Below are positions 540 to 35,714 of a DNA stretch of 49,019 nucleotides, in pieces (the first letter of the stretch is position 1; each line of letters begins with the position of its first letter). The stretch spans positions 1 through 49,019 of the forward strand of contig JAFLEE010000032.1 of assembly GCA_017302015.1 (NCBI GenBank). Direction: 5' to 3'. The position numbers and the translations under genes were made by a program. Source of the stretch: Spirochaetota bacterium (GTDB lineage Bacteria > Spirochaetota > UBA12135 > COTS27 > JAFLEE01). The notes beneath the pieces were generated by a model. The model did no database searches. It saw only the letters and a program-made list of their open reading frames with translations, and was not told the DNA's origin.

Positions 540-1422
540 GTTGCCGGCGACCCAAGCCCATTTCAACCGGAGGGTGCAGGCGATGCGCCGCGCCGGGGCT
601 TGGGCGAAGGAATGCGCGTCGGGAAAGGATCTCGTCTCGCTCTGCCAGGAGGCTTGGCTCGCCGGGGACTTGGACGCGGTGGAACTCTCCTCCCTCTTCA
701 CCCTTGTGCTCGGCGGGAAACTCGGCTGGTCCGTAGCGACCCTCCGGGAAGACGCCCCGCGGCGCATCGACGGCGAACTGCACCGGGAATGGCGGGGCTG
801 GCCCGGCCTGAGGGGGGCCGCCCTGGTGCTGCGCGCCGATGGCACGGCGCTGCCCGTGGACCCGGCGCACGATGAATCCGTGCGTTTCCTGCGCGTCGAA
901 GCGGGGGATTTGGTTTCCCTCTGGGCGACGGCCGAGGAGGGCATCGACGGGGCGGCCGCCCTCGCGGTGCTCAGATCGGCGTGGACGGGCATGCCCCTTC
1001 CGGAAGACGCCCAGTGGATCGCCTTCCGCAGCCGCCACTGGAAGGCCGGCGACGCGTCCGTGGTGGAGGGAAAAGCGCCTGGGCCCGTCTTCGATCCTGC
1101 CGAACTCATGCGCGTGGAAATCGGGAGCGCCCAGGTCGGCGCCTTGGAATGGCGGGCCGCCGAGGCGCTCCTTCGAGCCTACTTGAAAACGTTGGGGGGG
1201 GAGGGCTCGTTCTTTTTCGAGGGCCTCCCGGTCTCGTCGTTGCGCCGCCTCGCCCAGAGTTACCGGCCTTCGCGGGGATCCGTGCTCTACGTCGCCGTGC
1301 GCCGGGGACCCGATGAGGCCCGCCGGCGCCTCGCCGCATTCCTCTCGGAATGCCTGGATTCGCCCGGGACCGCGGCGTCCCTCCTCGAGGCCGCCGAAAC
1401 GGGGAGGCTCTTCGAACCATGA
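529..1422 (+). CDS. Unrecognised 297-residue protein, operon partner of the PPDK-like gene
   Basis: I do not recognise a family. The predicted product is soluble, with no signal peptide or membrane segment. It is rich in Ala, Leu, Arg and Glu, with likely alpha-helical ends (about 10-60 and 210-297) around a mixed central part. The ATG at 529 lies inside the end of the preceding gene (11-base overlap), and its TGA stop at 1420-1422 shares bases with the ATG of the next gene at 1419 (ATGA). This tight coupling argues that it works with the degenerate PPDK-like protein and the Pro/Ala-rich protein. Codon use is the same GC-rich pattern as its neighbours, so a recent import is not indicated. Confidence 0.75.
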   Translation: MISELPATQAHFNRRVQAMRRAGAWAKECASGKDLVSLCQEAWLAGDLDAVELSSLFTLVLGGKLGWSVATLREDAPRRIDGELHREWRGWPGLRGAALVLRADGTALPVDPAHDESVRFLRVEAGDLVSLWATAEEGIDGAAALAVLRSAWTGMPLPEDAQWIAFRSRHWKAGDASVVEGKAPGPVFDPAELMRVEIGSAQVGALEWRAAEALLRAYLKTLGGEGSFFFEGLPVSSLRRLAQSYRPSRGSVLYVAVRRGPDEARRRLAAFLSECLDSPGTAASLLEAAETGRLFEP

Positions 1423-3881
1423 GCGCGAAGCCCGTCCTGTGGATGCCCGGGGAGGCCGTGGGCGAGGTGGATCCCGTCCTCTGGAGCGACCGGGTCGCCG
1501 CGCTCGCCGGACAATTGGCGGCGGGCGTCCCCATGCTGCCCATCCTGGCCCTGCCCGCGGATTATTTGCGCGGCTTCCACCGCCACGGGGACCTCTCGGA
1601 ATTGAAGCCGGCCCTGGCCGCCCTCAAAGATTTTTCAGAATTGCTCAGCCCCGAGGGGCGCAGCGACCGGCTCCTGCTCCTCTTGGAGGTGGAATTCGTG
1701 CCGTGCCATAGCCCGGAACCGCCGCTTCGGATCCTCGGGCCGGGCATCAACCAGGGGAATTGGGAAACCTTGGCGCGCACGCTCCCCGCCCCGATCCTCC
1801 AGCGCCGCCTCCGGGAATGGGCCAAGACGGTCCTGGATTTCCGCCACGGGGAAGCCCTCCGTTGGCGCCGCGAGACCCATGGCCGCGACGCGGCCTTGCC
1901 CGAAAGCGTCCACTCGGCGGAGGAACTCGCGTTCCTCCGGGGATTGGGGAGCGCCCAAAACACCGCCGCGTTGACGGAACTCATGGAAACCACGGCCCGC
2001 AAGAACGGCGAGTTCTTCAGGGCCGCCCTCGACAAGACCGCGGCGCAATTGCGGGAGATCCTCTTTCACGCCAGCCGGCGCATCGACCAGGAGGGCAGCG
2101 GCCGGTTCACCGCCCTCGTGCGCCCGGCCCTCGAGCCCTCCCTCAGCCCCGACAGCCTTACCGGATCCTTCATGACCGCCGATCCCTGGACCGGCGCCCC
2201 GGTGCCCACGGGGATGTTCTCGGGGAAGTCCATCGACGGGGAGGAAGGCGAGGGCGCTCTGGAAGGGGCCCAAGCGATCGAACGCCTGCCGGCTCAGATG
2301 AAGCGCCAACTCGAGGCGGTCGTGAAGGGATTGCGTCAAGTCGGCCCCGACCTCTATTGGGTTTCTTTCACCGTCTTCAATAACCACCTATGGGTCGACG
2401 AAGCCCGGGTACTCGACGACGCCGCCCCCCAGGCGCGCCTGGCGCTCCTGGCGCAGGCGGTGCGGGAGAAGCGCCTCGACGCCGCCGGTGCCACGCGGCG
2501 CATCGCCGGCAAGGACCTCGCCGCTCTCCTGGAGCCCCAATTCGCCGGGGGGCTGACGCGGTGGAAGGGCGCGCGAAGCCTCGTCAGCGGCCGGGTCGCG
2601 GGGCGCGTGTATCCCGATCCCGATTCGCTCCTGAAGGCCCGGGGACGCAGCCGACGCGAAGAGGCGTTCCTGCTGGCCGTCAGCGAGGTCGACGCCTCCA
2701 CCATGCGCATCCTCTCCCGGGTCGACGGCCTCATCGTGCGGCGGGAGAACACCCTCCTGGACCGCATCCTCCCCAGGCTCCCGATCCCCGTGGTGCGCGC
2801 CCAAGACCTGGTCCACGACGAGCACGGCGTTCGCTTCATGGGGCGGCGCTTCCCGTCGGCCGCCGCCCTCTCGCTCTCCGCGGAACCCGGCGGAACCCCC
2901 TGGGTGGGTTGGAAATTGCTCCCCCTGGTCGAACCGGAGCCCGAAAAACTCGGTCTGGGGGAGATGCTTTCCGGTTCGGCGCCGGGGCTCGAGCTCCTCT
3001 CCATCCTCGATTGCCCGGCGGACGCCCACGACGCCATGGTCTGGCTCTCCGACGGCTGGGGCTACTTGAAACTCGGCTCGCTCTTCCGGTCGGAGTGGAA
3101 CCCCGGCGCTAGGCGGGAACGGGATTCGCGGCGGCTCCTCCCCCTGGCCCATGAGGTGCTCCTCTCCGCCCATCCCGATGCGCGCATGGCGGCCGACCTC
3201 GAGGCCCTGCTCGGGGAGGAACTCGCCAAAGTCCTCGCCCTCGGCGGCCGGGGCGCGGCGGTCTTCCAATTATGGGAGGGGCCGTTCCTCGATCCGGCCT
3301 TCGCCCCCGACCGCCTCGACCAGGAAGACCTCGCCCAATACCGGAAACTCCGCCAGCGCCACGGCGAGGGCTTGCGAATCCGCGAAGGGTGGGGGATGGA
3401 AGACGTCATGCCCGACTGGTACGCCTTCCAGGTGCGCAGCGTCGTCCATGCCATGGAGAAGGCGGGCCGCCCCGCGGGGGATGCCTCATTCCTCCTTCCC
3501 CAAATCGCGGTCCAAGGCGACCCGGACCGCATTCTCGAGGGCGATCTCTCCACGCCCGGCCTGCGTTCGGTCGCCGGCGTGAGCCCCTGCGGGGCCCTCT
3601 GGCAGGACGCCCGGGGCGTTTTCCATAGTTTCCGCGCTTCGCGCGCCGCGGATTTCATCGCCGTCGAGACGGGCGACCGAAAGACCTGGGTCGACGCGGT
3701 CCTCGAAACGGCCTACGGCGTGCGCCCGGACCGCAAGCCCCTTCTCATCTGGGAACCGGGCGCGGGCCCGGAGGCCGCCGTGCGCCTGGCGGGCTTGGCC
3801 AAGGAGCGGGGCGCCGTACGCCTCGCCATGCCGCGGCGCCAAGTCCCCCTCATGCGCTGGGCGCTCACCGCTCAGGGTTGA
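1419..3881 (+). CDS. Catalytically degenerate pyruvate phosphate dikinase-like protein (pseudo-PPDK)
   Basis: 820 residues, close to the 870-900 of PPDK (ATP + Pi + pyruvate to PEP). Landmarks can be followed in order. The N-terminal nucleotide-domain start (about 25-52) and the PGMMDT-LNLG region (about 105-140, here PGINQGNWETLA) come first. The linker ending in a GEDVVAG-like stretch (about 275-290) and the LWMLQTR-GKR element (about 324-331, here LWVDEAR) follow, then the swivelling domain (about 385-485). The PEIY-MQ-RA element (about 655-690) and the final CSPFRVPIARLAAAQ-like end are also visible. The catalytic signatures are gone: the phosphohistidine site reads RENTLLD (His replaced by Asp448), and the C-terminal Cys-Gly-Glu of the pyruvate site is replaced (LLIWEP). 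Start ATG 1419 overlaps the previous stop. I infer a structural or regulatory protein, not an enzyme. The overall family match is moderate, built from motif order, not a search. Confidence 0.7.
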   Translation: MSAKPVLWMPGEAVGEVDPVLWSDRVAALAGQLAAGVPMLPILALPADYLRGFHRHGDLSELKPALAALKDFSELLSPEGRSDRLLLLLEVEFVPCHSPEPPLRILGPGINQGNWETLARTLPAPILQRRLREWAKTVLDFRHGEALRWRRETHGRDAALPESVHSAEELAFLRGLGSAQNTAALTELMETTARKNGEFFRAALDKTAAQLREILFHASRRIDQEGSGRFTALVRPALEPSLSPDSLTGSFMTADPWTGAPVPTGMFSGKSIDGEEGEGALEGAQAIERLPAQMKRQLEAVVKGLRQVGPDLYWVSFTVFNNHLWVDEARVLDDAAPQARLALLAQAVREKRLDAAGATRRIAGKDLAALLEPQFAGGLTRWKGARSLVSGRVAGRVYPDPDSLLKARGRSRREEAFLLAVSEVDASTMRILSRVDGLIVRRENTLLDRILPRLPIPVVRAQDLVHDEHGVRFMGRRFPSAAALSLSAEPGGTPWVGWKLLPLVEPEPEKLGLGEMLSGSAPGLELLSILDCPADAHDAMVWLSDGWGYLKLGSLFRSEWNPGARRERDSRRLLPLAHEVLLSAHPDARMAADLEALLGEELAKVLALGGRGAAVFQLWEGPFLDPAFAPDRLDQEDLAQYRKLRQRHGEGLRIREGWGMEDVMPDWYAFQVRSVVHAMEKAGRPAGDASFLLPQIAVQGDPDRILEGDLSTPGLRSVAGVSPCGALWQDARGVFHSFRASRAADFIAVETGDRKTWVDAVLETAYGVRPDRKPLLIWEPGAGPEAAVRLAGLAKERGAVRLAMPRRQVPLMRWALTAQG

Positions 3882-4468
3882 TCGGGGGCCAGCGCGGCCC
3901 GGATCAGCGACGTGGAGAATCCGCGCCGTCGCAGGCGCGCGTGGAGGAGTCGCTCCTCCTTCAACCGGGGAAAGCGGACTTTGACATAGCGGCGCAGGGC
4001 CGCGACTTCATCGAAGGCGACGGATTCCGCCACCGCGCGCCGCACCCCCAAGGCCTGGAGTTGGCGGCGCAAGAGCCAAAGCGGCCGGCCGCCCCGTTCT
4101 TCGTGGCGGCGCATCCACAGCGCCGCGAAACGCTCCTCCGACAAGAACGACTGATCGCGCAATTCGGCCTCAAGGGCCTGCGACCAGGACGCCGGCAGAA
4201 GGCGCCGCTCCATCCAACGCTGCAACGCGAGGGGCGAGCGCTCCGTGGAGCCGAGGTAGCGCTGGGCGGACAGCAACAAAAGTTGGCGTTCCTCTGCGAG
4301 GAGGGCTTGCCAGGCTTGTTCGCCCAATTCGATCTCGCCCGGAAAGACTTGGGATGGGAACTGGGCTCTGAAAACCCGTACGGTGAACGGAAAGATATCC
4401 CCCGCCTCCGGGTCCTCGACGAGGATGCGCGTCGGGGGGCCCTCGAAAAAACGCGCGAGAAGCTTCAC
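3872..4468 (-). CDS. recX: RecX family regulatory protein
   Basis: About 198 residues, made of three-helix repeats typical of RecX, which binds RecA filaments and modulates recombination. Visible features are an N-terminal region ending in LLSAQRYL and a first repeat with an ERSPLALQRWMERRLLP-type helix. Next comes a repeat with FLSEERFAALWMRRH, which corresponds to the family's L-DERFA element, then a Gly-rich turn and an R-LRRQLQALGV helix, and the tail LHARLRRRGFSTSLIRAAL. The start is a GTG at 4468 whose last two bases form the TGA stop of the esterase upstream (GTGA), so translation is coupled. The longer open frame upstream of this GTG is a shadow of the esterase. It ends convergently with the PPDK-like gene, overlapping by 10 bases. 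recX usually follows recA, so pairing with a carbohydrate esterase is odd. Confidence 0.82.
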   Translation of the reverse strand: MKLLARFFEGPPTRILVEDPEAGDIFPFTVRVFRAQFPSQVFPGEIELGEQAWQALLAEERQLLLLSAQRYLGSTERSPLALQRWMERRLLPASWSQALEAELRDQSFLSEERFAALWMRRHEERGGRPLWLLRRQLQALGVRRAVAESVAFDEVAALRRYVKVRFPRLKEERLLHARLRRRGFSTSLIRAALAPDQP

Positions 4469-6525
4469 GGAAGGCGCGCGCCGAGCACCTCCACCTCGCG
4501 GAGGGAACAAACCCCGTTGGTCTGGCCCTGGAACCCGGGGCGCCAGACGTCGGGGAAGGTGAGGTGGACGCCGCGCACCGCGGCCAGGAGGCGGTTGGTA
4601 TACACCCAGGTGGCGCCCGAGCCGTTTTGGAACGTGTTCGTGGCCACGGGGAGCCATCCCGCCAGATCCGCGCTGAGGGAAAGCACGACGGTCTTGGTCC
4701 CCTGGACGGCGGCGTTGTGCACGCGCACTTCGTCGATGCGGCAGCGGCCCTGGAGATCGATGCGGACCCCCTTCGGGAATTTCATGGAGGTGTCGGTCGC
4801 GTAGACGTCTTGGGGGCGATCGCGCAGCGATCCGTCAGTCAAGCCAAGGTATTGGGATCGATCCCTGGCGCTCCAGGGGTGGGTGGATTTGAACGGCTTC
4901 CCGACGGCCAAGCCATTGGCGCGGTCGAGGGATCCGGCGGGAAAATCGTCGCTTCGGAAGGGGTTGGCCGGGAACCCTTCGCGATTATAGAGGTTCACCA
5001 GGGGAAAATTGGCCCAACCGTAGCGCACGGCGACCGGGTGGTCGACCTCGGGGGAACTCAGTTCGACGGTCGCCGGGGAGGTGATGCGCGCGGTGGCCGG
5101 GACGAAGCGGCGGTTTTCGCCGCAGAGCGTGAAGCCCGATAGGGTCTCGGCGGACAGGTCATGGGTGTCGAGGCGCACGGCGCGGGCTTCCAAGCCGCTG
5201 CCGACGTTCACGAACCTCACGGTGGCTTTATCGCCCAAGAACGACGCCTCGTCGAAGGTGGGCCCCGTGGGCACCTCGTATCGGTTGTACACCCGGGCCT
5301 TGGCCCATTGGGCCAGGCGCAAGCCCACCGGGCGCTTATTGGTGGGATGGATATCGTGCTCCTGGCCCACGTCGATGGCGCTGGCCATGCCGGTATTCGG
5401 GAGGGCGAGCACGCGGGCTTGGGATTCGCGCAGGTAGGCCCAATTAGGATCCTCGGGCCGCGGGTTCATCTTCTGGTAGGCGGCGAGTTGGACATAGAGG
5501 AAGGGGAAATCGCCCTGACCCCAGTCCCGGCGCCAGGCCCGGATGAGTTCCCCGAAAACGGCCGCGTAATTCGTCGCGCTCTCCACGGGATTGGCGTTAT
5601 TTTCTCCCTGGTACCAGACGACTCCCTTGATGCCGTAGGGTTGGAGCGGGGAGATCGTCCCGTAATAGAGCCCGAAGGGCCGTTTCACATGGTTGGGGCC
5701 CATGGGCTCTTCCGGACGGCGGGGCCCCTGCCTGCCTCGTTCCTTGGCCTTGGCCATGTTCGATTCCCACCGAATGAGCTCGCGCTGGTAATTGGAGAGC
5801 GCCTGCGGATAGCGATCGACCGCCCGGCCGTAATTGGAGAGGTAGGCGCGGAAGGCGGGGTGGTTTTCTGTGGCTTCCCGGGGGATCCAGGATTCTGCGT
5901 GGGTGCCGCCGAGATTGGCGTGGATGAGGCCGATCGGCACGCCGATGCTCTCGTGGATTTCCTTCCCGAAAAAATAGCCCACGGCGGAGAAATAAAGGAG
6001 ATTCGAGAGGTGGGGCCCCTCGAGGGATTGCCATCCCGCGGCCCAACGCCCGTCCAAGATCGGGGTTTCCCGGGGACGATCCGCGGCGGCATATTGGACT
6101 TTCAAGAGGCGCATGTTCCCGTTGGTTGCGCCGGCGAGGATGCTCTCCCGGTCGGGTTGTCCCCCGACGGCCCATTGCATGTTCGATTGGCCGCCGCAGA
6201 TCCACAAATCCCCGAGGAGCACGTCCTTGAAAACGAGCGTGTTCTTTCCCCGGATGACGAGGGTGAAGGGGCCCCCCGCCTTGCGCGCCGGGAGGACGAC
6301 CTTCCATTTGCCGTCCTTGGCGGTGGCGCGGGCGGTGGAGCCCGCGAGTTCCACTTGGACTTGCTCGCCATCGGGGGCCGTCCCCCAAATCGGGATGGGG
6401 AGCTCGCGCTGGAGGACCATGTGGTCGCTAAAAAGCGGGCTGACCGCGACTTCGGCCGACAGGGAAACGGCGAACAACGCGAGCAGGGCGACGGCCGGGG
6501 GAATCACGCGACGGATAGAATCCAT
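4465..6525 (-). CDS. Secreted sialate O-acetylesterase (SASA family)
   Basis: 686 residues. An N-terminal signal peptide (Met-Asp-Ser-Ile-Arg-Arg then a hydrophobic core to Ser-Leu-Ser-Ala, about 1-24) sends it to the periplasm or outside. The SGNH-type hydrolase core is clear: nucleophile Ser114 in GGQSNMQW, the ESWIPRE block (about 211-217), WYQGENNANP (about 304-313) and the Asp-His pair in HDIHPTNKR (Asp391, His393). The family removes acetyl groups from sialic acids or plant and host glycans. The C-terminal third (about 540-686) looks like a carbohydrate-binding or discoidin-like beta domain, with Trp/Asn-rich strands. The start at 6525 is preferred over the upstream in-frame Met at 6573 because GGAGG lies just before it and the signal peptide follows directly. 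The stop overlaps the recX start. Confidence 0.9.
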   Translation of the reverse strand: MDSIRRVIPPAVALLALFAVSLSAEVAVSPLFSDHMVLQRELPIPIWGTAPDGEQVQVELAGSTARATAKDGKWKVVLPARKAGGPFTLVIRGKNTLVFKDVLLGDLWICGGQSNMQWAVGGQPDRESILAGATNGNMRLLKVQYAAADRPRETPILDGRWAAGWQSLEGPHLSNLLYFSAVGYFFGKEIHESIGVPIGLIHANLGGTHAESWIPREATENHPAFRAYLSNYGRAVDRYPQALSNYQRELIRWESNMAKAKERGRQGPRRPEEPMGPNHVKRPFGLYYGTISPLQPYGIKGVVWYQGENNANPVESATNYAAVFGELIRAWRRDWGQGDFPFLYVQLAAYQKMNPRPEDPNWAYLRESQARVLALPNTGMASAIDVGQEHDIHPTNKRPVGLRLAQWAKARVYNRYEVPTGPTFDEASFLGDKATVRFVNVGSGLEARAVRLDTHDLSAETLSGFTLCGENRRFVPATARITSPATVELSSPEVDHPVAVRYGWANFPLVNLYNREGFPANPFRSDDFPAGSLDRANGLAVGKPFKSTHPWSARDRSQYLGLTDGSLRDRPQDVYATDTSMKFPKGVRIDLQGRCRIDEVRVHNAAVQGTKTVVLSLSADLAGWLPVATNTFQNGSGATWVYTNRLLAAVRGVHLTFPDVWRPGFQGQTNGVCSLREVEVLGARLP

Positions 6526-9394: not shown

Positions 9395-9657
9395 ACGCGG
9401 CGGGTGGGAAGCCGGAGGGGGATGCGGAGGCGAATCGGGGCCTCCTGGCGGAGGCAGTGCGCCTCGCCCTCGCGGGGGATTGGGACCTCGCCCACAAGGC
9501 CGTACAGGGCCTCGACAACGACCGCCGGGCCTGCTGGATCCACGGGATCCTCCACCGCATCGAGGGCGATCTGGAGAACGCCCGCTATTGGTACCGGAAG
9601 GCGGGGCGCCCCTTCCCCAGCGAAGATCCTCGGGAGGAACTCAAGGGCATTTTCTAG
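9391..9657 (+). CDS. Small soluble conserved protein of unknown function (TPR-like helix pair)
   Basis: 88 residues. The core is a predicted helical pair: WDLAHKAVQ, then ACWIHGILHRIEGDLENARYWYRKAGRP. I recall short bacterial proteins with the same HRIEGD--NARYWYR-AGRP pattern, always uncharacterised; it resembles a single TPR unit. The ATG overlaps the stop of the exchanger gene (ATGA), so it is co-translated with it. Its TAG stop lies within a CTAG that also encodes the stop of the opposing PPC-domain gene, so the two converge with 4 shared bases and no terminator between them. Confidence 0.7.
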   Translation: MNAAGGKPEGDAEANRGLLAEAVRLALAGDWDLAHKAVQGLDNDRRACWIHGILHRIEGDLENARYWYRKAGRPFPSEDPREELKGIF

Positions 9658-11948
9658 GGCGTTTCCGCCACGACCTGGTAGGTGACGGCGGGCAGGGTGC
9701 AGATGAAGGTGCGCGTGGTGGCGCTCCCGATAACGTTCCTGTTGCCACCGGTCATCGTGTAGGCGTTGAAGACGAGGTTGCCGGTGGCCCCTGGCTTCGC
9801 GGCGGCCCCGTCGACCTTCACGGCGACCACGGGGGGGAGCCCGTTATTTCCCGGGGTCGTGCGCGAGACCGAGATCCCCTTCATGGGGGAATCGAGTTCG
9901 AGGATCACCCGCTGGATCGAATCGGGGGCGCGGGCGCCCCGGGCGGTACCGAGGAGTTTGATGGGGAGCAGCGTCTCTTGGCCCGCGAGGAGCGGCACCT
10001 GGTTGTCATCGGCGACGTCGATGGCGAGGGAGAGGCGGGGCTTCGGGGTTACCTTGAGCACCAATTCCTGGGCGCTGACTAAGTGGCGGTAGGCGAAGGC
10101 CTGCATCATGTCTTCCGCGGCGATGGCGGTGTGGCGGACGGTCTTCCCCCCGATCTTGGCGGTGGCGATGATCTGCGGGGTGATGCGGTCGAGTTCGACA
10201 TCGGGGATCGTGAGGGTGATGGGGATCACCCGCTCGAGGGATTTGAGTTGGGCTCCGCCGAGGAAGGCGCCGGAGGGGGCCTTGGCCAGGGAGAGCGTGA
10301 CCTCGCCGTCGAAGCCGTCGATGCGCTGGAGATGGACATCGAGGGCCGCGGTGCCGCCGCCGGGGACGCTGACGCAGGAGGGGGTGACCCGCAGGCGGAA
10401 ATCGGGCCGGGGAGTCGACAAGCGCAGGCGATAGGCGTAATCGGCGCCTCCTTTTCCCTGGGTATCCCGAAGCAGCAGGGTGTACTCGCCGGTTTCGGGG
10501 AGTGCGAAATGAAGGTAGGAGTCGGCGTGGTGGGTCACGAGACCCGCGAGTTGGTCGGTGAAATCGTCGTTGGTCTGGATGACCTTGCCCTTGGAATCGA
10601 GCACCCGCAGGGCCGAATCGAGGGGAGAGCCGAGGCGGCGGGCCCAGACCTCGGCGATGACGCGGTCGCCGGCCTTGCCGGAGAACCGGTAGCAATCCAT
10701 GGTCCCGGGCTTTTCGATGCGCCCGTTGATGGCGGCCGGGACGCGCACCGCTTGGGCCGTCGCCACGCCGTGGTTGTCGCCCGCGGCGCGGATCTCGGGG
10801 AGATCCTCCACGAGGAAATTGATGGGGTTATAGGAGGCGCTGCTGACGGGGTTGATGTGGATGAGCCCGCCCTCCACCGCCTTGGTCTCGACGAGGGTCT
10901 GGGCCGTCGGGAGGTTCCAGCCCATGAGTTCCACGGACGTCTTGCCTTTCAGGGGGCCGCCCAATGGGAAGATGCCCGTGATGAAGGGCAGGACCCCCAC
11001 GGTGACGCGGTAGACGAAATCTTCACGGCCGCGGTAGATGGAGTCGCGGATCTCGAGGGTGAGTTCCCCGTCTTCCGCCGGCGTGTATTGGATGAGCGGG
11101 TCGGGGAGATGGCGCCAATGGTCGGCGTAGGCGACTTCCTTCCCCGAGGCGTCGTAGACCGCGAGCACCGCCTGGAACCAGCCCGGCACCGCGTCGGCGA
11201 GGTAGGGCATGAGGTCGCGGGCCTGGACGGCGAAGACGAGGTTCTGCCCCTTTTTCACCTTGATGCGGAACCGGTCGAAATCGCCGGGGAGGATCTGGCC
11301 GTTGAGCACCGCGGGCAGGGTCTCCACGGGCGTGGCCTGCTTCGCGGTATCGTTGGGTTCGCGCTCGAGCGCTTCCTCCATCTGGCTGACGAAGAAGGAG
11401 AGGGGTTCGGAGATCCCCTTGGGGGTCGAGAGGCGGATCTCGCGGCGCCCCGGAAGCGCGTCGGCTGGGACGGCGACCTCGATGCGCACCATGTCGGTGA
11501 GCTGCACGTTGATCTGCTTGCGCTGCTTCATCCCCATCATGAATTTGTTCATCTCGGGGTCGCTGGGGGCGGGCTCCTGGTAGGACATCTGCTGCATGAC
11601 GTAGGCCAGGCGCTTCTCGAGGGCGGGCTTTTCATCCTCCCCCGCGTTCTTGATCTTGCCCTCGATGACGGCCTTTTGGTTCTCGAGGTTATTGAGGGCC
11701 CGCCGGTCGAGGTCGCGGTTGAAGGCCTGGAATTGGGCGGTCACCTTTTCCCCGGTGACGAAAATATTGGTGATCCCCTCCAGGTTCTGCCCGCCGAAGA
11801 GCACCGTGACTTTTTGGCCCGCCTTCGCCCCGCTGGGGAACGCGTAGCCGATATGGGGCATGTTCTCCGCCGGGAAGCCGGTGGCGAGGAGGAGGGCGGC
11901 GGCGAGCCCGAGGACGGGGAGCGCGCGGCGCGGGGCGGGTCGGGTCAT
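9654..11948 (-). CDS. Secreted PPC-domain (bacterial pre-peptidase C-terminal) protein of planctomycete/verrucomicrobial type
   Basis: 764 residues. Signal peptide at 1-27 (Arg-rich start, then LPVLGLAAALLLATG). An IPT/TIG-like beta domain follows (about 32-75, GYAFPSGAKAGQKVTVLFGGQNLEG), then a Lys/Glu-rich helical section. At least two PPC-type beta domains contain the EREPND/TA and DRFRIKVKKGQ-LVFAVQARDL pattern, and again RIEKPGTMDCYRFSGKAGDRVIAEVWARRLGSPLD. Proteins of this architecture sit next to DUF1501 and DUF1549/DUF1553 genes in Planctomycetes and relatives; the function is unknown, though a surface or carbohydrate-related role is often supposed. The ATG at 11948 overlaps the DUF1501 stop (ATGA), so it is the last gene of the three-gene operon. 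A longer upstream frame is a shadow. Confidence 0.85.
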   Translation of the reverse strand: MTRPAPRRALPVLGLAAALLLATGFPAENMPHIGYAFPSGAKAGQKVTVLFGGQNLEGITNIFVTGEKVTAQFQAFNRDLDRRALNNLENQKAVIEGKIKNAGEDEKPALEKRLAYVMQQMSYQEPAPSDPEMNKFMMGMKQRKQINVQLTDMVRIEVAVPADALPGRREIRLSTPKGISEPLSFFVSQMEEALEREPNDTAKQATPVETLPAVLNGQILPGDFDRFRIKVKKGQNLVFAVQARDLMPYLADAVPGWFQAVLAVYDASGKEVAYADHWRHLPDPLIQYTPAEDGELTLEIRDSIYRGREDFVYRVTVGVLPFITGIFPLGGPLKGKTSVELMGWNLPTAQTLVETKAVEGGLIHINPVSSASYNPINFLVEDLPEIRAAGDNHGVATAQAVRVPAAINGRIEKPGTMDCYRFSGKAGDRVIAEVWARRLGSPLDSALRVLDSKGKVIQTNDDFTDQLAGLVTHHADSYLHFALPETGEYTLLLRDTQGKGGADYAYRLRLSTPRPDFRLRVTPSCVSVPGGGTAALDVHLQRIDGFDGEVTLSLAKAPSGAFLGGAQLKSLERVIPITLTIPDVELDRITPQIIATAKIGGKTVRHTAIAAEDMMQAFAYRHLVSAQELVLKVTPKPRLSLAIDVADDNQVPLLAGQETLLPIKLLGTARGARAPDSIQRVILELDSPMKGISVSRTTPGNNGLPPVVAVKVDGAAAKPGATGNLVFNAYTMTGGNRNVIGSATTRTFICTLPAVTYQVVAETP

Positions 11949-13285
11949 ACCAGTTCCTTCAGTCGCCCCCCGCTGGGGAGCTTTTCCTCGGCGCCGGGAA
12001 GCAGCCGGAGTTGGGACCCCTGGGGGCCCGGGATGGTTCCATCGGGATCGATGCCGAGGCGCTCGTAGACGGTGCCGAGCATGTCCCACGGGTAGACGGG
12101 GCGGTTCTTGGGCTCCTCCCCGGTCTTGTTGCTTTCGCCGATCACCTGGCCGCCCTGGAAGCCGCCCCCGGCGAGCACGGCGGAGAAGCAGCGGCCGAAA
12201 TGGCTGCGGCCGCCGTTCCAAGGCGGGTCCCATTCCACCCGGGGGGTGCGGCCGAACTCCCCGCCCCACCAGACGATGGTGCTGTCGAGCAGGCCGCGGT
12301 CCTTGAGGTCCTCCAGCAGGGTGGCGAGGCCGTTGTCCATCTGGGGCAGCATGGTGTTCATGAGCTGGAAATGCTGCTTGTGGGTATCCCAACCGGGATA
12401 ATTGATGGTGATGTAGGGCACCCCGATCTCCACGAGGCGCCGGGCGGCGAGGCAGGATTGCCCGAAAGTATTGCGCCCGTAGCGGTCGCGCAATTCGGGT
12501 TTTTCCTGGGTCAGGTCGAAGACCTTCCCGGCGGAGCCGAGGATGAGGTCCCAGGCGGCGCTTTTCGAGGCGTTGAGTTGCCCCATCTCGGGGTGGGCGC
12601 CCATGGCGGATCCGAAAGTGTCCATGCTCGAAAGGAGGCCCTTGCGGCTCTCCTGGCGCTCGGGGGGGATATCCTTCGAGACGACCCCCTCCACCGCGAA
12701 GACCGCGTCGGCGGGGTTGCCGCCCGTGGCGAAGGGCTTGAATTTTTGGCCGAGGAAGCCGGCCTCGTCGAAGCGCCCCTGGGGCCGGGTCAGCACGATG
12801 TACGGGGGCACGAGGCCCTTATAGCCCACGTCGTAGGCTTTCTTGAGCGCCACCACCGCGCCCACGCAGGGGTAGGTGAGGGCGCCGCCGGGGGCGTGCC
12901 CGGTCTGCACCAGATAACTGGCCGTCTCGTGGCCGTTATTGCCGTGGGTCATGCTGCGGATGACCGCCATCTTGTCGGCGTTCTTGGCCAGGCGCACCAG
13001 TTTCTCGCCGAGGCGGATGCCGTCGACATTGGTGGGGATCGGGTTCTTGAGGGGCCCGCAGAAATCATAGCCCGCGTCGGGCTTGGGATCGAAGGTGTCG
13101 AGATGGGTGGGGCCGCCCCACATCCAGATCTGGATCACGGATTTGGCGAAGGGCTTGCCGCTTTTCAGCCCCTGGGCGCCCAAGCCGCCTCCGAGCATGG
13201 CCGCGCCGGCCGCGCCCGTGCCGAGGATCCGAAGGGCGTCGCGGCGCGAAACCCCCCCGTTTTGCCGTCCTTTTTTGTCTTCCAT
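11945..13285 (-). CDS. DUF1501 protein with twin-arginine (Tat) signal
   Basis: 446 residues from the ATG at 13285, chosen because a GGGGAG ribosome site lies just upstream and the Tat signal follows. The N-terminus carries SRRDALRILGTGAAGAAMLGG, a twin-arginine export signal, so the protein is likely folded, perhaps with a metal, before export. The body shows DUF1501 (alkaline phosphatase/sulfatase-like fold) features: IWMWGGPTHLDTFDPKPDA near the start, SMTHGNNGHETASYL, and the conserved GWDTH (YPGWDTHKQHF) and WWGGEFGRTPR blocks. Activity is not established for the family. It lies between the DUF1549/DUF1553 gene and the PPC gene in one transcript; 23 bases separate its start from the stop of the gene before it. 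Confidence 0.9.
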   Translation of the reverse strand: MEDKKGRQNGGVSRRDALRILGTGAAGAAMLGGGLGAQGLKSGKPFAKSVIQIWMWGGPTHLDTFDPKPDAGYDFCGPLKNPIPTNVDGIRLGEKLVRLAKNADKMAVIRSMTHGNNGHETASYLVQTGHAPGGALTYPCVGAVVALKKAYDVGYKGLVPPYIVLTRPQGRFDEAGFLGQKFKPFATGGNPADAVFAVEGVVSKDIPPERQESRKGLLSSMDTFGSAMGAHPEMGQLNASKSAAWDLILGSAGKVFDLTQEKPELRDRYGRNTFGQSCLAARRLVEIGVPYITINYPGWDTHKQHFQLMNTMLPQMDNGLATLLEDLKDRGLLDSTIVWWGGEFGRTPRVEWDPPWNGGRSHFGRCFSAVLAGGGFQGGQVIGESNKTGEEPKNRPVYPWDMLGTVYERLGIDPDGTIPGPQGSQLRLLPGAEEKLPSGGRLKELV

Positions 13286-13308
13286 GTTGGCTCCCCGCCT
13301 TTCGGGCG

Positions 13309-14925
13309 TCAATGCTTCATGATGTATTCGGTGCTGTTGATGAGCGCCCAGGAGAGGTCGATGAGGCCCTCTCCCTGCTTGTTCTTCTCTTTTCGTTCCT
13401 GGAAATAGGCGCCGACCTTCGTCTTCTCGTCGTCGGTCGGCCGGCGCGAGAGGATGGAGAGGTAGAGGTCCTCGAGGATGCGCTCCGGTTTCACGTTCGG
13501 CTGGGCGAGGATTTTCCGGAGTCCGGCGCTTCGGGAGATCTTGTCCTGGATATGGCTCGAGTTGAAGAGGTGGATCTGCTGCTCGGCGCTGGGGGTATTA
13601 TTGCGCTCCGACTCCATGCCGCTGTCGCGGGAGGGGCGGCCGAACATCTCGAGGAAGGCGCTCGAGATGCTCCCGTCGGCGATCTCGACGGAGGGCTTGC
13701 CGTTGGGGATGTAGGTGAACGGTTCGGGGATGGGGCTGGAGTAGGACTCGATCCCGCCGGTGAACTGGTTGATGATGTCGATGAGCACCTCCGCCTCCAG
13801 GCGCCGCATGCGGTAGCAGGAGAAATGCGTCTCGTTGGTGAGGGCGGGATCGGAGGGGATGGAGGAGAGTTGGTAGGTGCTCGAGGCGCATACGAGACGG
13901 TAGAATTTGCGCATATCGTAGCCGAGGGCGCGGAACTCGGTCTCGAGGTAGGCCATGAGGGCCGGGTTCGAGGGGGGATTATCGGGGCGGATGTCATCGG
14001 GCTCATGGATGATGCCGCGCCCCATGATCCACGACCAGAGCCGGTTGGCGCCTGCGCGCGAAAAATAGGGGTTGTCCGGCGCGAGCAGCCAATCCGTGAA
14101 GACGAGGCGCGGATCGACGGATGGGTCGATTGCGGGCTTCTTGCCGTCGGGGAAGACCGCCTGGATCGGGAGCCCGTTGGCCCCCTTGGGCGCCGGCTTA
14201 TCGGGATCGAAGAAGACGATCTCCTCCTTCCACTCGAGGGTCGATTTGTAGGCGACCTTGGAGAAGAATCCGGCGAGGCCCTCGAAGCGGTCCTTGGGCC
14301 AGCGCGAGGTGCGGCTGCCCATGAAGGTGAGGGCCGCGGTGGATGCCAGGGTGAAGGCCTCTTTCTTCTGCACCGCCCGGTAGAAATTCGCCGGCGGGTC
14401 CCGAAAATTGACCCCGCTGGCTGTCAGGAGTTCCCGGGCGAATTGGTCGTAGGTCTGGTTGCTGCGGATGGCGGTGCTCACCCATCGGTGGTAGGCCTGA
14501 ACGGCGTTGGGCCACAAGTTCACGGGGAACTCGGATTTCACCCGAAGCACATCGCACCATTTGAGGGCCTGATAGGCGATATAGGCCTCGGAATCCAGGA
14601 GGCGGTTCACCACCTGGGCGCGCCGGTTCGCGGCCGGGGCCGCCAAGTAGTCCCGGACCTGGGCGGCCGTGGGGGCCGTCCCGGTGAGGTCGAGATAGGC
14701 GCGGCGGATGAAGACTTCATCCGAGCAAAGGTAAGTCGGCTTGATGCCGAGGGCATCGAGTTGGGAAAAGACGAGTTCGTCGATCTTATTGGCTTTCGGG
14801 ACGGCGCCGGGTTTCTCGAAGGGCAGGACCGGTTCGCGGGCGGGCTGGGCCACCGCGAAAAAGAAGAGCAGGGGGATGGCCTTCAAACCCGAAGAAAAAT
14901 GGCGGGAAAACTCAGCGCTTTTCAT
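13309..14925 (-). CDS. Secreted DUF1549/DUF1553 protein (planctomycete PSD1-type)
   Basis: 538 residues with an N-terminal signal (LKAIPLLFFFAVAQPA, about 15-29). The DUF1549 half begins at about 45, with IDELVFSQLDALGI and the signature RRAYLDLTGTAPTAAQVRDYL. The DUF1553 half includes PYFSRAGANRLWSWIMGRGIIHEPDDIRPDNPPSNP and a C-terminal ERILEDLYLSILSRRPT element. No cytochrome domain is present, so it is a short version of the family. The proteins are very common in Planctomycetes, Verrucomicrobia and some related lineages, always with DUF1501 partners, and remain without a proven function. No strong ribosome site precedes the ATG. It is the first gene of the trio, so its promoter should lie in the spacer at 14926 onward. 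Confidence 0.9.
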   Translation of the reverse strand: MKSAEFSRHFSSGLKAIPLLFFFAVAQPAREPVLPFEKPGAVPKANKIDELVFSQLDALGIKPTYLCSDEVFIRRAYLDLTGTAPTAAQVRDYLAAPAANRRAQVVNRLLDSEAYIAYQALKWCDVLRVKSEFPVNLWPNAVQAYHRWVSTAIRSNQTYDQFARELLTASGVNFRDPPANFYRAVQKKEAFTLASTAALTFMGSRTSRWPKDRFEGLAGFFSKVAYKSTLEWKEEIVFFDPDKPAPKGANGLPIQAVFPDGKKPAIDPSVDPRLVFTDWLLAPDNPYFSRAGANRLWSWIMGRGIIHEPDDIRPDNPPSNPALMAYLETEFRALGYDMRKFYRLVCASSTYQLSSIPSDPALTNETHFSCYRMRRLEAEVLIDIINQFTGGIESYSSPIPEPFTYIPNGKPSVEIADGSISSAFLEMFGRPSRDSGMESERNNTPSAEQQIHLFNSSHIQDKISRSAGLRKILAQPNVKPERILEDLYLSILSRRPTDDEKTKVGAYFQERKEKNKQGEGLIDLSWALINSTEYIMKH

Positions 14926-26605: not shown

Positions 26606-28984
26606 TCACCGGGCGTAATAAACCTTGAGGTTGCGGATCCAATAATCGAGGATCGGGTCGGCGGATCCCATGCCGATGCGAAGCGCCGTGGCTTGGGCCG
26701 CCTGCTCCGTGGGGAAGGTGACGAGGCGCTTCTGCCATTCGGGCCGGGGCGGGTCGACCTTGAAGCCGTCGTAGCGGGCCTTCTCCCCGGAATCGCCGTA
26801 GACGAGCATCACGAGGCTATGGGCGTAGAAGGTCGAGCCCATCCCCTGGACGGCCTTCACCTCGTAGGAGAGCCCGACGGCGTTGGATAGGCCCTCCTCG
26901 GGGAGGCGCAGGGCGAACTCCGGGTAGACCCAGAAGTCTTTTTTCGCATTGGAGAAATCCGCATGCACCCGCAGGCAGGCTCCGTCTTCTTCCGCGGTGA
27001 AGCGTAGTTCCCCGGAACTATTGGCGCGCCAACGCGAGGGATCCGAGACCGGGAAACGAACGCCGCGTCCCTTTTCGACGGCGAGGAACGGCAGGGACAG
27101 GGTCGGCGCGAGTCCCGATGGCTCCCGCACGGCAATCACCATTTCCAGTTCCCGGCAGGCGGAAAGGTCCACCTCCCAGCGCAGGCGCTTCGAACTTTTG
27201 GCGGGGATCGCTACGAGGCCTTCGGGGAAGGCGGTGGCCGTGATCCGGCCTCCCTCGGGCAGGACCAATTCGGGGCGCAGGGACCGCTCTTGCGCCGACA
27301 GGTTGAAGGCGTTCACCTCGATACGTTGGGGTTCGGCGCGGTAATGGTTGCGATCCTGGTCCTTGATCTCCCAATAGGGGAATTGGAAGAGGAGGGGGGA
27401 GGCCGCCCGCTCGAGCGGGCGGTAGGAGGCGGAAAGTTTCTTCAGGGCCATGGCCTCGGTGTCTCCGTTGACGCGGCCTGCGAGTTTCCCCGGGTCCAAT
27501 TCGAGATAGGCCATGCCGCCATCCACGTCGAGGCCGGTGTCGGGATCCATCCGAGCGGGGCTCCCGTCCATGGCCCGCGCTTGCCTCACTGGCAAGTCCC
27601 CGAGGCGTACGGGAGTCAACCCCGACGCGCCCGTATAGAGGATGGCGGTGGCGCGTTTGCCGTCGGAGAAGACCCGGGCGCTGCGCGCGCCCGCCGGAAG
27701 GGGCTTCAGGTCGCCGAGATAGCCGAGGCCGGCGAGTTCGACGATGGCGCGGGCATAGGCCGCCATGGATCGCATGGGCGTGCCATAGTAATCGAGCAGG
27801 CCGAAATTATTGTTATTTTCCTCGAAGAACCGCAGGGTGAACGGAAAATACCGCTCGATGCCCGCGGCTTTCGCCTCCACGGCCTTCATGGTGATCCAAA
27901 GGGCGCTGGTGCGGTCCTCCTCCACGTCCGCCCGCAGGCTCCCGCGCGTTCCCCCGTAGACCGAGGTGAGTCGGGCCAATTTGCGGCTCCAGGGCTTGCC
28001 CGATTCGGTAATCCAAATCGGCATGCCGGCTTTCGGGGTTCCCTTGAGCCAGGAACGGTAGGCCTTCACGAGGCCGAGGAGTTCGTCGGGGTGGGAATAG
28101 GTGTGGAAGGTGAAGACGTCGATGGTCTGGGCGAAGCCGTTTTTGAAGTACGGGCCCAGGCAGGCGGCGCTTAAGTCGCCGCTGGAGAAGGGGGCCCCGG
28201 CGAGGGGGATCGCCACCCCGTGCTCCTTGAAAAACCAGGAGCAGGCCGCCGTGAAGGGGAGGAGCGTATCCCCGGGGTGCTCGATATGCTCGGGTTCGTT
28301 CCAGACTTGGAAGGCGGCCAGGCTCGGGGAGCGCCGCTCGACCATGGACAGGATGGACGCCTCGACGGAAAGAAGGTCCCTCGGGTAATCTCGGGTGCCC
28401 GCTGCGGCGCCGGTCCACGCGGGGGTCGTCGAGAAGCAGCAGACGGATTTGATTCCTTCACAGGCGAAGTCCCCGTAGATGGTCTCCCGGGAGAGTTCAG
28501 GCTTGCCCCTGATTTTTTCGTCGTCTTGCCAGGCCTCCCATTCCCGGGCGCAATCGATCCCGCAGCGGCGAACGATGCGAAGCGCCCCGCCGCGCATGGC
28601 CCCGGCTCCTTTCAGAAGGGTTTCCATGCAGAAGAAGGGGTCTCGGTCGCCGACGAAGGCTTCGCCGCAGACGAGGCCGAAGCGCTGTTTCGTCGCGGGA
28701 ACCGACAGGTCGTAGAAACCGCGCCCCAGTTTCACCGTGGCCGTAAACCGGGCTTGCCCGTTTTCCCGCTGGAGTTTTCCCTGCCCGCAGGGGTTCCCTC
28801 GGTAATCGCTTAAGGTGAAATCCAATGCCTCCTCGGCCACGTTCGACGCGTTAAAAGCCAGGGTCGCGGGCTTCCCCGGGTCGAAGAAGAACGCCTCCAT
28901 TGAGACGGGGGTGAGATTCTGCGCGGCTAGAACGGAGGCCCATCCGAGGGCGAAAAGGCACAGGCTCAGGCGAAAGCGACGCAT
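26606..28984 (-). CDS. Secreted glycoside hydrolase-like protein (clan A TIM barrel, GH39-like)
   Basis: 792 residues with signal peptide (RLSLCLFALGWASVLA, about 4-20). After an N-terminal beta region (about 25-105), a TIM-barrel section contains FQVWNEPEHIEHP, with the Asn-Glu pair (Glu230) typical of the acid/base residue in clan A. It also contains IWITESGKPW, with the likely nucleophile Glu327; the spacing (about 97 residues) fits a retaining glycosidase. FHTYSHPD (about 293-300) also fits the barrel. A long C-terminal beta-rich part (about 440-792) looks like one or two accessory jelly-roll domains. Substrate is unknown. The ATG 28984 is chosen for the AAGGAG before it and the immediate signal peptide. 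It is transcribed away from fabV. Confidence 0.78.
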   Translation of the reverse strand: MRRFRLSLCLFALGWASVLAAQNLTPVSMEAFFFDPGKPATLAFNASNVAEEALDFTLSDYRGNPCGQGKLQRENGQARFTATVKLGRGFYDLSVPATKQRFGLVCGEAFVGDRDPFFCMETLLKGAGAMRGGALRIVRRCGIDCAREWEAWQDDEKIRGKPELSRETIYGDFACEGIKSVCCFSTTPAWTGAAAGTRDYPRDLLSVEASILSMVERRSPSLAAFQVWNEPEHIEHPGDTLLPFTAACSWFFKEHGVAIPLAGAPFSSGDLSAACLGPYFKNGFAQTIDVFTFHTYSHPDELLGLVKAYRSWLKGTPKAGMPIWITESGKPWSRKLARLTSVYGGTRGSLRADVEEDRTSALWITMKAVEAKAAGIERYFPFTLRFFEENNNNFGLLDYYGTPMRSMAAYARAIVELAGLGYLGDLKPLPAGARSARVFSDGKRATAILYTGASGLTPVRLGDLPVRQARAMDGSPARMDPDTGLDVDGGMAYLELDPGKLAGRVNGDTEAMALKKLSASYRPLERAASPLLFQFPYWEIKDQDRNHYRAEPQRIEVNAFNLSAQERSLRPELVLPEGGRITATAFPEGLVAIPAKSSKRLRWEVDLSACRELEMVIAVREPSGLAPTLSLPFLAVEKGRGVRFPVSDPSRWRANSSGELRFTAEEDGACLRVHADFSNAKKDFWVYPEFALRLPEEGLSNAVGLSYEVKAVQGMGSTFYAHSLVMLVYGDSGEKARYDGFKVDPPRPEWQKRLVTFPTEQAAQATALRIGMGSADPILDYWIRNLKVYYAR

Positions 28985-29188
28985 CGTGGCTCCTTCGAGG
29001 GCGATTTGGCGGTTTTTGGCACCATTAAAGCGTCTCACGAAGCCGGGGAAAATGCGAATGGGTGGATTTTAGACAATGGAAGGCGAAATACCCTCCCATG
29101 TCCCAGTTGCCTACTCGATTATCAGGAATATATTGGAGTCACGGGGATACTTACAGACTTCGCGACGTCTTTAGCGATTCGCGAGGCA

Positions 29189-30671: not shown

Positions 30672-30686
30672 AAAATCAACACCTCC

Positions 30687-30716
30687 TTGTCTGAATTGAC
30701 GGGCTGAAGGTAAAAT
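30687..30716 (+). promoter_or_regulatory. Candidate sigma70-type promoter of the ACAD/ETF operon
   Basis: TTGTCT and TAAAAT separated by 18 bases, immediately after the terminator and about 160 bases before the acyl-CoA dehydrogenase start. The -35 box lies in the first copy of a CCTTGTCTG direct repeat whose second copy is 61 bases on, about six helical turns. Confidence 0.5.
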
Positions 30717-30876
30717 ATTCCGTTGTCCCGGGTATTTCAACCCAGCCTTGTCTGGATTCCGGGGGAATAACGCATTCCGGACCCCGTGGGTTCCCTTTCC
30801 ACGCGGTGCCCGGTTTTTTCTTTATCCACCGCCTTTTGGGGCAAAAAAGCCCCCAGGCAGCCATCAGGAGCGCATC

Positions 30877-32952
30877 ATGGAACAGGAATCCGGACTCAAG
30901 ACCCTGCCGGGAGACGAGGTCCGCCAGATCCAGTGGGGTTTTTCCGACCGCTACGACCTCCAGATGCTGGTAGCCAATGCCCGGCGCGTGGCCCGGACCA
31001 TCGTGGCCAAGAACGTCGCCGAGGGCGAGCGCAATACCCACGAATGGACCAAGAAAAAGGCGGCCATGATCGACGCCTTTGACGAAGCCGGCCTCACAGC
31101 GGCCTTCATGGACGTCGAGCACGGCGGTTTCATCGACGGCCCCAAGAACCTGGCCCTGGCCCTCATGGCCTTCGAGATCAGCTGGGTCGACGGCGGCGCC
31201 GCCACGGCCGGCCTGGCCGGAAACCTGGCCCTTTCGCCCATCAACGAGTGCGGCACCCCCGAGCAACGCGCCCGCTATATGGGCGGCGCGGTGCCGGGGA
31301 AGGGCGGCAAGCTCCTGCGCGGTTCCTTCGACCTGACCGAGCCCCTGCCGTACGCCGGCGTCGACGGCAGCATGCTCAGCGGCACGATGCGCATCGAGAA
31401 GTGGGAGGAGGGCAAGGAGCCCATCCTCAAGATCGAGAAGCGCGGGCGCTTCATCACGAACATGGCCTACGCCAATTTCGTCACGGCCGCCGTGGGCTCG
31501 GCGGACGAGCGCATCAAGGGCTCGACCATGGTGATCCTCGAGGAGACCGACCCGGGCCTCTACGACCGGGGCGTCGCCACCAAGAAGATGACGCACCAGC
31601 TCTCCTCCACCCACGATCCCGTCTTCAGCCTGAGCGTCCCCGCCAGCCGCATCATCGGCGGCTACGATATCGTCGACGGCAAGATCGTCCCCCGCCTCGA
31701 CCACGGCTCCATCATCGAGGCCGTCTTTAGCCATACCCGGGTGACGGTGGGCATCATGACCGCCGCCAAGCTCCTCTCCGCGGTCGAGCCCCTCATCCGC
31801 TACCACCGCCAGCGCTACCGCGGCACGTCGGCCGACGACGTCGCCTCGCCCCGCTTCAAGCTCGGCATCCAGCAGAAGGAGGACGCCCAGCAGCGCCTGG
31901 CCGACATCTGGGCCGCGGGCGAGGCCATGTGCTCCCTCGGTTTCGCCGCCGCCCGCCTCTTCGACAAGATCGACGCCCTCGTGAAGATCCGCAAGGAGAT
32001 CCTCGCGAAGAAGGGCATCACCGGCGGCCGCGCCCTCTACAAGGAGACCAAGGCCATCGAAGCCCAGGCCATGGAATACCTCAAACTCGACGGCAGCCTC
32101 ACCGAGGCCCAGAAGGCCACCGACGCCAAGTACCGGGCCCTGAAGGAAGATCCCCTCATCCAGTTCGCCCTCCTCGATACCCTCGGCAACGTCTATTGCC
32201 CCGCGCCGAAATTGTGGAACACCGGCCACGGCACCAATATGATGCGCGAGGCGGTGGCCCTCATGGGCGGCTACGGCATCACCGAGGACGCCCCCGGCTA
32301 CCTCTGCAATAAGTGGGTCGACGGCCAACTCGAGGCCACCTACGAGGGCCCCGAGGTCGTCCAGCGCCGCCAGATCAGCCTCACCATGACCAACGAACTC
32401 TTCCTCGAGCAACTCCGCCTCGCGCTGGCGGAACTCGAGGCCATCCACCGGGAGATGCCCAACGTCGGGGCGGCGATCACGGCCCGCGCCGGCAAACTCT
32501 TCCTCTTCGCCCTCGATTACATGCAGAAGACCAACGACGCCACGGGCAAGAAGTATTTCCACGCCAACCGCCAGGGCGTCTCCTTCCCCCTGGCCGACGC
32601 CCTCGCCTGCCTCCTCGGCTCCGTGGAGCAAATCCGCGACCTCGTGCGACTCAAGAACGAGGGGCCCCAGAATCCCGTGGCCGCCGAATCCCTGCCCGGC
32701 CTCCTTCCCTTCATGGGCGACCTCTGCGTCATCCAGGCCCTCGACATGGCCGGCGAGGTCGAGAAGGTGCTCACCGAACTCATCTACGGCTATATGGCCG
32801 ACCCGGCTTCCGTGCGCACCACCCTCAAGGAGTACCAGGAACTCCGCCTCGCCTTGGAGGAATCCATGGCCGGCCAGCGCAGCGCCCGCGACCGCGCCGG
32901 CTACGCCCTCACCCAAGTCAGCATCCCCGAAGTGCTCGATTACCCCCAATAA
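30877..32952 (+). CDS. Acyl-CoA dehydrogenase (long, divergent)
   Basis: 691 residues, longer than the ~380-600 of common acyl-CoA dehydrogenases. Landmarks: FDEAGL and the middle-domain element FDLTEP (about 149-154, matching the family's F-LTEP-AGSD). Also present are the GHGTNMMREAVALMGGYGITED segment and the catalytic-base region EATYEGPEVVQRRQ, whose Glu in YEG is the family's active base. It should therefore oxidise acyl-CoA, or run in reverse as an enoyl-CoA reductase, passing electrons via FAD. Extra length lies in the middle (about 380-440) and at the C-terminal helical end. AGGAG precedes ATG 30877. It heads a four-gene operon with an ETF-QO-like protein and ETF beta and alpha, presumably its electron acceptors. 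Confidence 0.93.
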   Translation: MEQESGLKTLPGDEVRQIQWGFSDRYDLQMLVANARRVARTIVAKNVAEGERNTHEWTKKKAAMIDAFDEAGLTAAFMDVEHGGFIDGPKNLALALMAFEISWVDGGAATAGLAGNLALSPINECGTPEQRARYMGGAVPGKGGKLLRGSFDLTEPLPYAGVDGSMLSGTMRIEKWEEGKEPILKIEKRGRFITNMAYANFVTAAVGSADERIKGSTMVILEETDPGLYDRGVATKKMTHQLSSTHDPVFSLSVPASRIIGGYDIVDGKIVPRLDHGSIIEAVFSHTRVTVGIMTAAKLLSAVEPLIRYHRQRYRGTSADDVASPRFKLGIQQKEDAQQRLADIWAAGEAMCSLGFAAARLFDKIDALVKIRKEILAKKGITGGRALYKETKAIEAQAMEYLKLDGSLTEAQKATDAKYRALKEDPLIQFALLDTLGNVYCPAPKLWNTGHGTNMMREAVALMGGYGITEDAPGYLCNKWVDGQLEATYEGPEVVQRRQISLTMTNELFLEQLRLALAELEAIHREMPNVGAAITARAGKLFLFALDYMQKTNDATGKKYFHANRQGVSFPLADALACLLGSVEQIRDLVRLKNEGPQNPVAAESLPGLLPFMGDLCVIQALDMAGEVEKVLTELIYGYMADPASVRTTLKEYQELRLALEESMAGQRSARDRAGYALTQVSIPEVLDYPQ

Positions 32953-32970
32953 GGGCGAGCGGAACTCCCG

Positions 32971-34857: not shown

Positions 34858-35685
34858 ATGAGCATCGATCACACCTACCACCTCGTCATCTGCGGCAGCG
34901 TGGTGCCCGACCCGCTGCAGAGCCTCGAGCCGGTCGTCACCCAGGGCAAGCCCGGGCTCAAGAACGAGCTCATGCTGCCCATGGTGCTCGATCCCTTCGT
35001 GAACCATAGCCTCAACGAAGCCGCCAAATTGCGCGAGGCCACGAAAGACACCCAGGTGCACCTGGTGGCCGTGGGGCCCAAGGCCAAGCTCCAGCAGCTC
35101 ATGATGGTCCTGGCCCAGAAGACGGCCTTCAATCTCGTCGCCGTCGACGCCCCCGCCGGCGGTTTCATCGATTCCCACACCGTGGCGGCCGCCCTGGCCG
35201 AGGCGATCAAGGCCATCCCCGGGCTCGACCTCCAGAAGACCCTCGTCTTCGGCGGCTGGAGTTCGGCTTCCCGCGCCAGCGGCACCACGCTCCAATTGGT
35301 GGGGGAGAAACTCGGCATCACCGAGCAATTTTTCGGGGTGGACCGGCTCACCCCCGCCGCCGACGGCGGCTTCACCGTGCTCGAGCGCGTGGAAGCGGGC
35401 CAGCACCTCGAGACCCAAGTCGCCGGGGCCCCCGCCGTCATCGGCTGGGCCACGGGTGAACTCCCCGAACTCCCCAATAACCCGAAGATCGGGATGATGA
35501 ACATGGCCAAGATCATGCCGGCCATCGGCAAGGCCAAGGCCGTCGACCTCGCCTCGGCCGGCTTCAGCGTCGTCGACACGGCCCTCCCCGCGGAGAAGCG
35601 CCAGACGCGGGTCGTGAAGGATATGCCCGCCGCCGCGGTCGCCGCCGAAATCAAAGAGTGGATCGCCTCCGGCAAGGCCGGCTGA
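34858..35685 (+). CDS. etfB: Electron transfer flavoprotein beta subunit (divergent)
   Basis: 275 residues. The order of family elements is retained: DPFVNHSLNEAAKLRE (the NP-DE-ALEEA element), VHLVAVGPKAKLQQLMMVLA, then TLVFGGWSSASRASGTTLQLVGEKLGI and the APAVIGWATGELPELPNNPKIGMMNMAKIMPAI element. The DGDTGQVG segment that binds AMP in typical ETF beta is replaced (SSASRASGTT), so the nucleotide site is altered. It forms a heterodimer with the alpha subunit encoded 29 bases later and takes electrons from the dehydrogenase. GGAG precedes the start. Confidence 0.87.
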   Translation: MSIDHTYHLVICGSVVPDPLQSLEPVVTQGKPGLKNELMLPMVLDPFVNHSLNEAAKLREATKDTQVHLVAVGPKAKLQQLMMVLAQKTAFNLVAVDAPAGGFIDSHTVAAALAEAIKAIPGLDLQKTLVFGGWSSASRASGTTLQLVGEKLGITEQFFGVDRLTPAADGGFTVLERVEAGQHLETQVAGAPAVIGWATGELPELPNNPKIGMMNMAKIMPAIGKAKAVDLASAGFSVVDTALPAEKRQTRVVKDMPAAAVAAEIKEWIASGKAG

Positions 35686-35714
35686 GCGCACATCATCCCA
35701 CAGGAATGCACCCC

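Follow-up and report, generated by a model that had tools for sequence, protein, structure and literature searches.

What does a spirochaete do with an 820-codon gene that spans the length of pyruvate phosphate dikinase (PPDK) but encodes none of its recognised catalytic residues? The question is raised by Q, an uninterrupted open reading frame that runs from an ATG at 1419 to a stop at 3881 on the forward strand of the window, by which we mean the whole stretch of DNA analysed here, the initial 49 kb (49,019 nucleotides) of contig C92 in a 5.4-Mb genome. Named records with relatives of the window genes assign this genome to the phylum Spirochaetota. An alternative in-frame start at ATG 1350, upstream, would extend the product to 843 aa. 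A preliminary description of this DNA had read Q as a full-length PPDK-like pseudoenzyme with both catalytic residues lost, used as a scaffold or regulator, possibly of a true PPDK encoded at another place in the genome.

Membership of the PPDK family was assessed with profiles and structure, the two checks that the preliminary description had proposed. A Pfam search of Q, PF01326, PF00391 and PF02896 included, gave no match, and the curated family threshold was missed (20.9 bits against TIGR01828, cut-off 843), whilst residues 242-402 matched NCBIfam PPDK models at 6e-7, far below cut-off. Compared by hhalign with a profile of 40 PPDKs from the same phylum, however, Q is colinear over residues 8-817 (97.8%, score 108.5), against a maximum of 24.8 for shuffled versions, 18.3 for the reversed sequence and at most 28.8 for each of the remaining ORFs of the window. 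Scored separately, residues 1-230 are at chance level; residues 231-380 (2109-2558, +), covering the end of the ATP-grasp domain and the linker, are strongly homologous by themselves (70.5 versus a shuffle maximum of 21.7); the swivelling, phospho-His domain at residues 381-500 (2559-2918, +) is suggestive (28.1 versus 19.8); and the PEP-binding barrel region at residues 501-820 (2919-3878, +) has colinear landmarks and alone reaches 26.7 versus 21.8, such that residues 500-820 stand modestly above chance. A structure model of Q (pLDDT 54.5, with PPDK relatives present in its alignment) matches PPDK over residues 2-820 (Foldseek E 1.5e-26, VIA Z 17.0). The case for full-length homology is built on the long colinear alignment and the fold match, and the order of PPDK landmarks reported earlier holds over the whole protein.

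The active sites are a different matter. In the MAFFT alignment the parts of Q around the His and the Cys fell in gaps, and both were read instead from conserved anchors and hhalign. There is no His in residues 437-460, and phospho-His455 is absent; the preliminary description had put Asp448 (codon 2760-2762, +) in its place, but in comparison with PPDK sequences Asp448 reaches that position only by ungapped extension from Gly437, and the profile aligner opens a gap there. The same description had given Trp for the catalytic Cys831. The Q stretch RPDRKPLLIWEPGAGP aligns gaplessly with RPDLVCGLCGEHGANP of its relatives, which sets Ile777 (codon 3747-3749, +) at the Cys position and Trp778 one residue further, in agreement with hhalign. 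Elsewhere on the PEP side we found R561→K, R617→Q, D620→E, R666→E, N768→S, D769→R and H834→P, and on the ATP side K22→R, E323→S and Q335→E, with E or I at R92 depending on the aligner. Judged from its sequence, Q thus follows PPDK from end to end and has lost both active sites, as first proposed. Next to canonical PPDK (C. symbiosum, 1kbl and 1dik, and the enzyme encoded on contig C124 of the same genome), it shares the three-domain order and linker but lacks the ATP site, the phospho-His and the catalytic Cys, at ~20% identity.

Protein searches with Q covered 120 relatives, the class and, across the phylum, 393 genomes; they returned only PPDK-family proteins, at ~20-27% identity to Q. Every match whose full sequence was read retains His and Cys, and no orthologue sharing the full residue loss was found in these sets; a peptide-pattern search of 85,000 genomes gave no match. 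In a tree, the branch of Q is saturated at 8.7 to 10 changes per column, and its placement is uninformative. The best relatives form a PPDK subgroup that scores 650-714 bits, below the TIGR01828 cut-off of 843, and are not canonical PPDKs. Around this subgroup a gene A (~650-680 aa) is followed by a gene B (~300-380 aa) and then by the PPDK-like gene C. Among 80 named loci retrieved with gene A, 64 showed this order, including 54 of the 61 for which the downstream DNA was complete; it was also present in further spirochaete genomes.

The three genes could be named from published work. Two variants have been reported in TP0746, A869T at 810772 and P655S at 811414 (PMC10013896); in a single-contig genome of 1.1 Mb these positions are precisely those of codons 869 and 655 of C, so C is TP0746. 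Given that cfpA is TP0748 (PMC2217670) and that A and C are separated by one gene, B, A corresponds to CfpA and B to TP0747; the Treponema pallidum cluster therefore reads TP0748 (cfpA), TP0747 (B), TP0746 ('PPDK'). This places the relatives of Q two genes after cfpA, the gene of the cytoplasmic filament system of treponemes (PMC2217670, PMC10013896). Variation around the cluster was also seen: an 888-aa protein with a FHIDTDCYIIYTG motif is encoded immediately upstream of cfpA in a class-mate of the window genome (G003; L154:1756-4422), ORFs resembling it lie near the cluster at L064 (6511-9177) and L067 (5012-7051), and at L067:7346-11030 a GAF-GGDEF protein precedes the C protein in place of gene B.

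A residue census of 98 C proteins with complete sequence, TP0746 included, revealed a sharp division between the two halves of the enzyme. At the ATP site, R92 is replaced by V or I in 98/98, K22 by R in 96, E323 by R or K in 97 and Q335 by E or D in 96; H455, R561, R617, D620, R666, E745, N768, D769 and C831 are kept in 98/98. The ATP half-reaction of PPDK depends on ATP-site residues of this kind, and the PEP half-reaction does not; the C. symbiosum mutants K22A and R337A have been crystallised. On this census the TP0746 family is an enzyme reduced to its PEP half, in which the ATP-site residues are gone and the swivel His and PEP barrel are intact. With one site lost and the other kept, the family is expected to take up phosphate from PEP without handing it on to AMP and PPi. 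In T. pallidum the gene itself (L193:2672-5377, -) is annotated as pyruvate phosphate dikinase, with the ATP-site residues replaced there as in the 97 relatives. Q resembles the family in its full-length domain order, its position directly 3' of gene B and its missing ATP-site residues, but has none of the His, Cys and PEP-site residues that the family keeps. The earlier expectation that orthologues would share the losses therefore stands for the ATP side and fails for the PEP side.

Gene B of the relatives is found, for example, at L074:12135-13169 and, in T. pallidum, at L193:5387-6421 (-). Modelled from an alignment of 33 sequences with no HPr sequence among them, its product folds with pLDDT 79 into two domains, each beta-alpha-beta-beta-alpha-beta-alpha, joined by a Pro/Ala/Lys-rich linker. 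HPr structures top the fold lists of both domains, with VIA Z 8.1 (residues 72-165) and 7.4 (residues 239-331) against 6.5 for the best non-HPr rows, in a range where common folds also score. The second domain alone carries an invariant His: the NELFHNGNVEAWK motif, present in 18/18 diverse relatives, sets His252 immediately before the helix at 253-269 of the model, which would make it the counterpart of HPr His15. Pfam gave no match to gene B of the relatives, PF00381 included, comparison with an HPr profile was not significant (0.7%), and the sequences of solved structures yielded no meaningful match. As these sequence methods do not detect HPr, the likeness is a fold prediction, by which B of the relatives would hold a pair of HPr-like domains, of which one has its invariant His in the position of the HPr phospho-His. 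The logic of PTS Enzyme I and HPr would then be matched by the PEP barrel and His swivel of C and by the predicted HPr-like B with its His at the helix N-cap; C differs from Enzyme I in being derived from PPDK and retaining a dead ATP-grasp domain, and B differs from HPr in having two domains and FHNGN in place of HxRP.

In the window, the gene directly upstream of Q (529-1422, +; 297 aa) overlaps it by ATGA, which gives Q the third place of the A-B-C order. By hhalign this gene is a diverged TP0747-family orthologue (89%, score 49; the next ORF of the window reaches 27.5, and the shuffle maximum was 23.4 in an earlier version of the comparison). A genome-wide HMMER search with the B-family profile did not recover it, and its orthology is based on the pairwise profile comparison and its position. 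By sequence comparison, residues 196-210 (VEIGSAQVGALEWRA; 1114-1158, +) occupy the place of the invariant motif; this region reads GSAQVGALEWRAA, and the His is lost. Both His residues of the Enzyme I-HPr scheme are therefore gone from the window pair. The position of cfpA is occupied by the 3' end of a gene truncated by the contig end (3-539, +), which encodes a Pro/Ala/Lys-rich product with the C-terminus GEFDLDDL. Considered as a CfpA tail, this piece scores at noise against the CfpA profile; it is too short and of too low complexity to identify. The contig ends within this ORF upstream of B, and no cfpA was found elsewhere in the genome. On the other side, the gene run is terminated by a convergent RecX-like gene (3872-4657, -; PF02631 at 4.2e-4, below cut-off).

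The remainder of the window holds fliM and a FliN-type switch gene, as well as a run of PPC-domain, DUF1501-like (read from sequence) and DUF1549/DUF1553 genes at 9654-14925 (-), a gene set known mainly from Planctomycetes but seen here in a spirochaete genome. Large ORFs with no Pfam match lie at 26606-29038, 30676-34017, 34875-36596 (-) and 43055-45778 (+), some of which may be spurious in such GC-rich DNA.

Related genomes help to place the losses. The class-mate G003 has A-B-C, with the ATGA overlap of B and C that is seen in the window and a C protein that, like Q, starts MSAK; its B carries an intact NELFHNGNVEAWK, and its C has intact His and Arg sites up to the contig end, which comes before the Cys. 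With His and Cys kept in all 98 complete C proteins and His and Arg kept in G003, the PEP-side loss appears, so far as known, private to the window lineage. The preliminary description had allowed that orthologues with His and Cys might reveal a recent decay; the orthologues are intact, but the loss in Q does not look recent, given its identity of only about 20-25% to any relative and a frame that is still open. In two order-mates (G001 and G002, 83% and 75% complete), genes A and C were not found, and the cfpA cluster may thus be heading for loss in this lineage.

Taken together, these results point to an account that we consider somewhat better than an even bet. Q would be an orthologue of the cfpA-linked TP0746 family, itself already half-dead, in a deep-branching uncultured spirochaete. 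With the PEP half alone intact in C and a predicted HPr-like His domain in B, a relay from PEP to C to B is the most likely ancestral device, and it would have worked near or on the CfpA filament. The cluster would have been inherited vertically, and the window lineage would have jointly lost the PEP site of C and the phospho-His motif of B. B and Q, still adjacent, overlapping and open, would have been kept as a non-catalytic complex with a structural or regulatory part to play. Phosphotransfer, the filament link and the structural role are what we infer from the residues, synteny and predicted folds. A B-C relay predicts joint loss of its two sites, and the loss in both B and Q fits a dead relay retained as a structural complex, albeit as one event in one genome.

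The main rival is that the B-C pair has no remaining task in the window lineage and is drifting under weak constraint ahead of its loss. Both genes are very highly diverged, A and C were not found in the order-mates nor cfpA in the window genome, and open frames persist long in GC-rich DNA. Yet 820 open codons have a probability of ~5e-5 in random DNA with the dinucleotide content of the Q region, codon-position bias is strong (GC 0.74/0.50/0.86 at positions 1/2/3), the ATGA overlap is intact, and similarity at the profile level is retained over the whole length. The frame is thus as intact as first described, and we regard slow decay as a serious but rather unlikely explanation. More improbable still is that the old folds now serve another ligand or reaction through new active-site residues. 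The replacement of all catalytic residues within a retained domain order would suit such a change, but a new pattern of conserved residues cannot be pointed to, since no known orthologue shares the state of Q.

The preliminary description was right that a true PPDK exists elsewhere in the genome: C124 encodes a canonical enzyme of 961 aa (TIGR01828, 1236 bits). That Q regulates or scaffolds this enzyme, for instance in mixed dimers, found no support and strikes us as very unlikely; the two lie on different contigs and belong to different subfamilies, and synteny points instead to gene B of the cfpA cluster as the conserved partner of Q. The same genome also encodes (L050:1407-4088, -) an 893-aa protein that resembles PEP synthase or rifampin phosphotransferase, in which PPDK_N comes first and the His domain lies at the C-terminus. 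Chance resemblance of a protein outside the PPDK family, for which one could cite the empty Pfam search, is scarcely credible beside the shuffled, reversed and other-ORF controls, the NCBIfam match, the full-length fold match and the adjoining gene B.

Returning to the relay and the non-catalytic complex that we favour, the consequences extend to the syphilis spirochaete, in which TP0746 is taken in the literature as a glycolytic PPDK (PMC10013896, PMC8525777). The family-wide loss of ATP-binding residues makes a metabolic, ATP-forming role of TP0746 doubtful. Bridging and anchoring components of treponemal cytoplasmic filaments were, to go by the title of a work cited in PMC3398590, described in 2004; in the open-access literature we found no paper connecting CfpA, PPDK and an HPr-like partner. 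Our analysis suggests that in T. pallidum and other spirochaetes the protein annotated as 'PPDK' belongs to a filament-linked phosphate relay and is not a metabolic PPDK. More tentatively, and with rather less assurance than for the history of Q itself, we propose that spirochaetes including T. pallidum may possess a second PEP-driven phosphorelay, made of the half-dead PPDK TP0746 and the tandem HPr-like TP0747 and tied to the CfpA filament, of which the window lineage would retain a structural complex after joint site loss. If the relay from C to B is real, it would couple the cytoplasmic filaments of treponemes to the cellular PEP level, and the window lineage would offer an example of what becomes of the C-B pair once its chemistry is lost.
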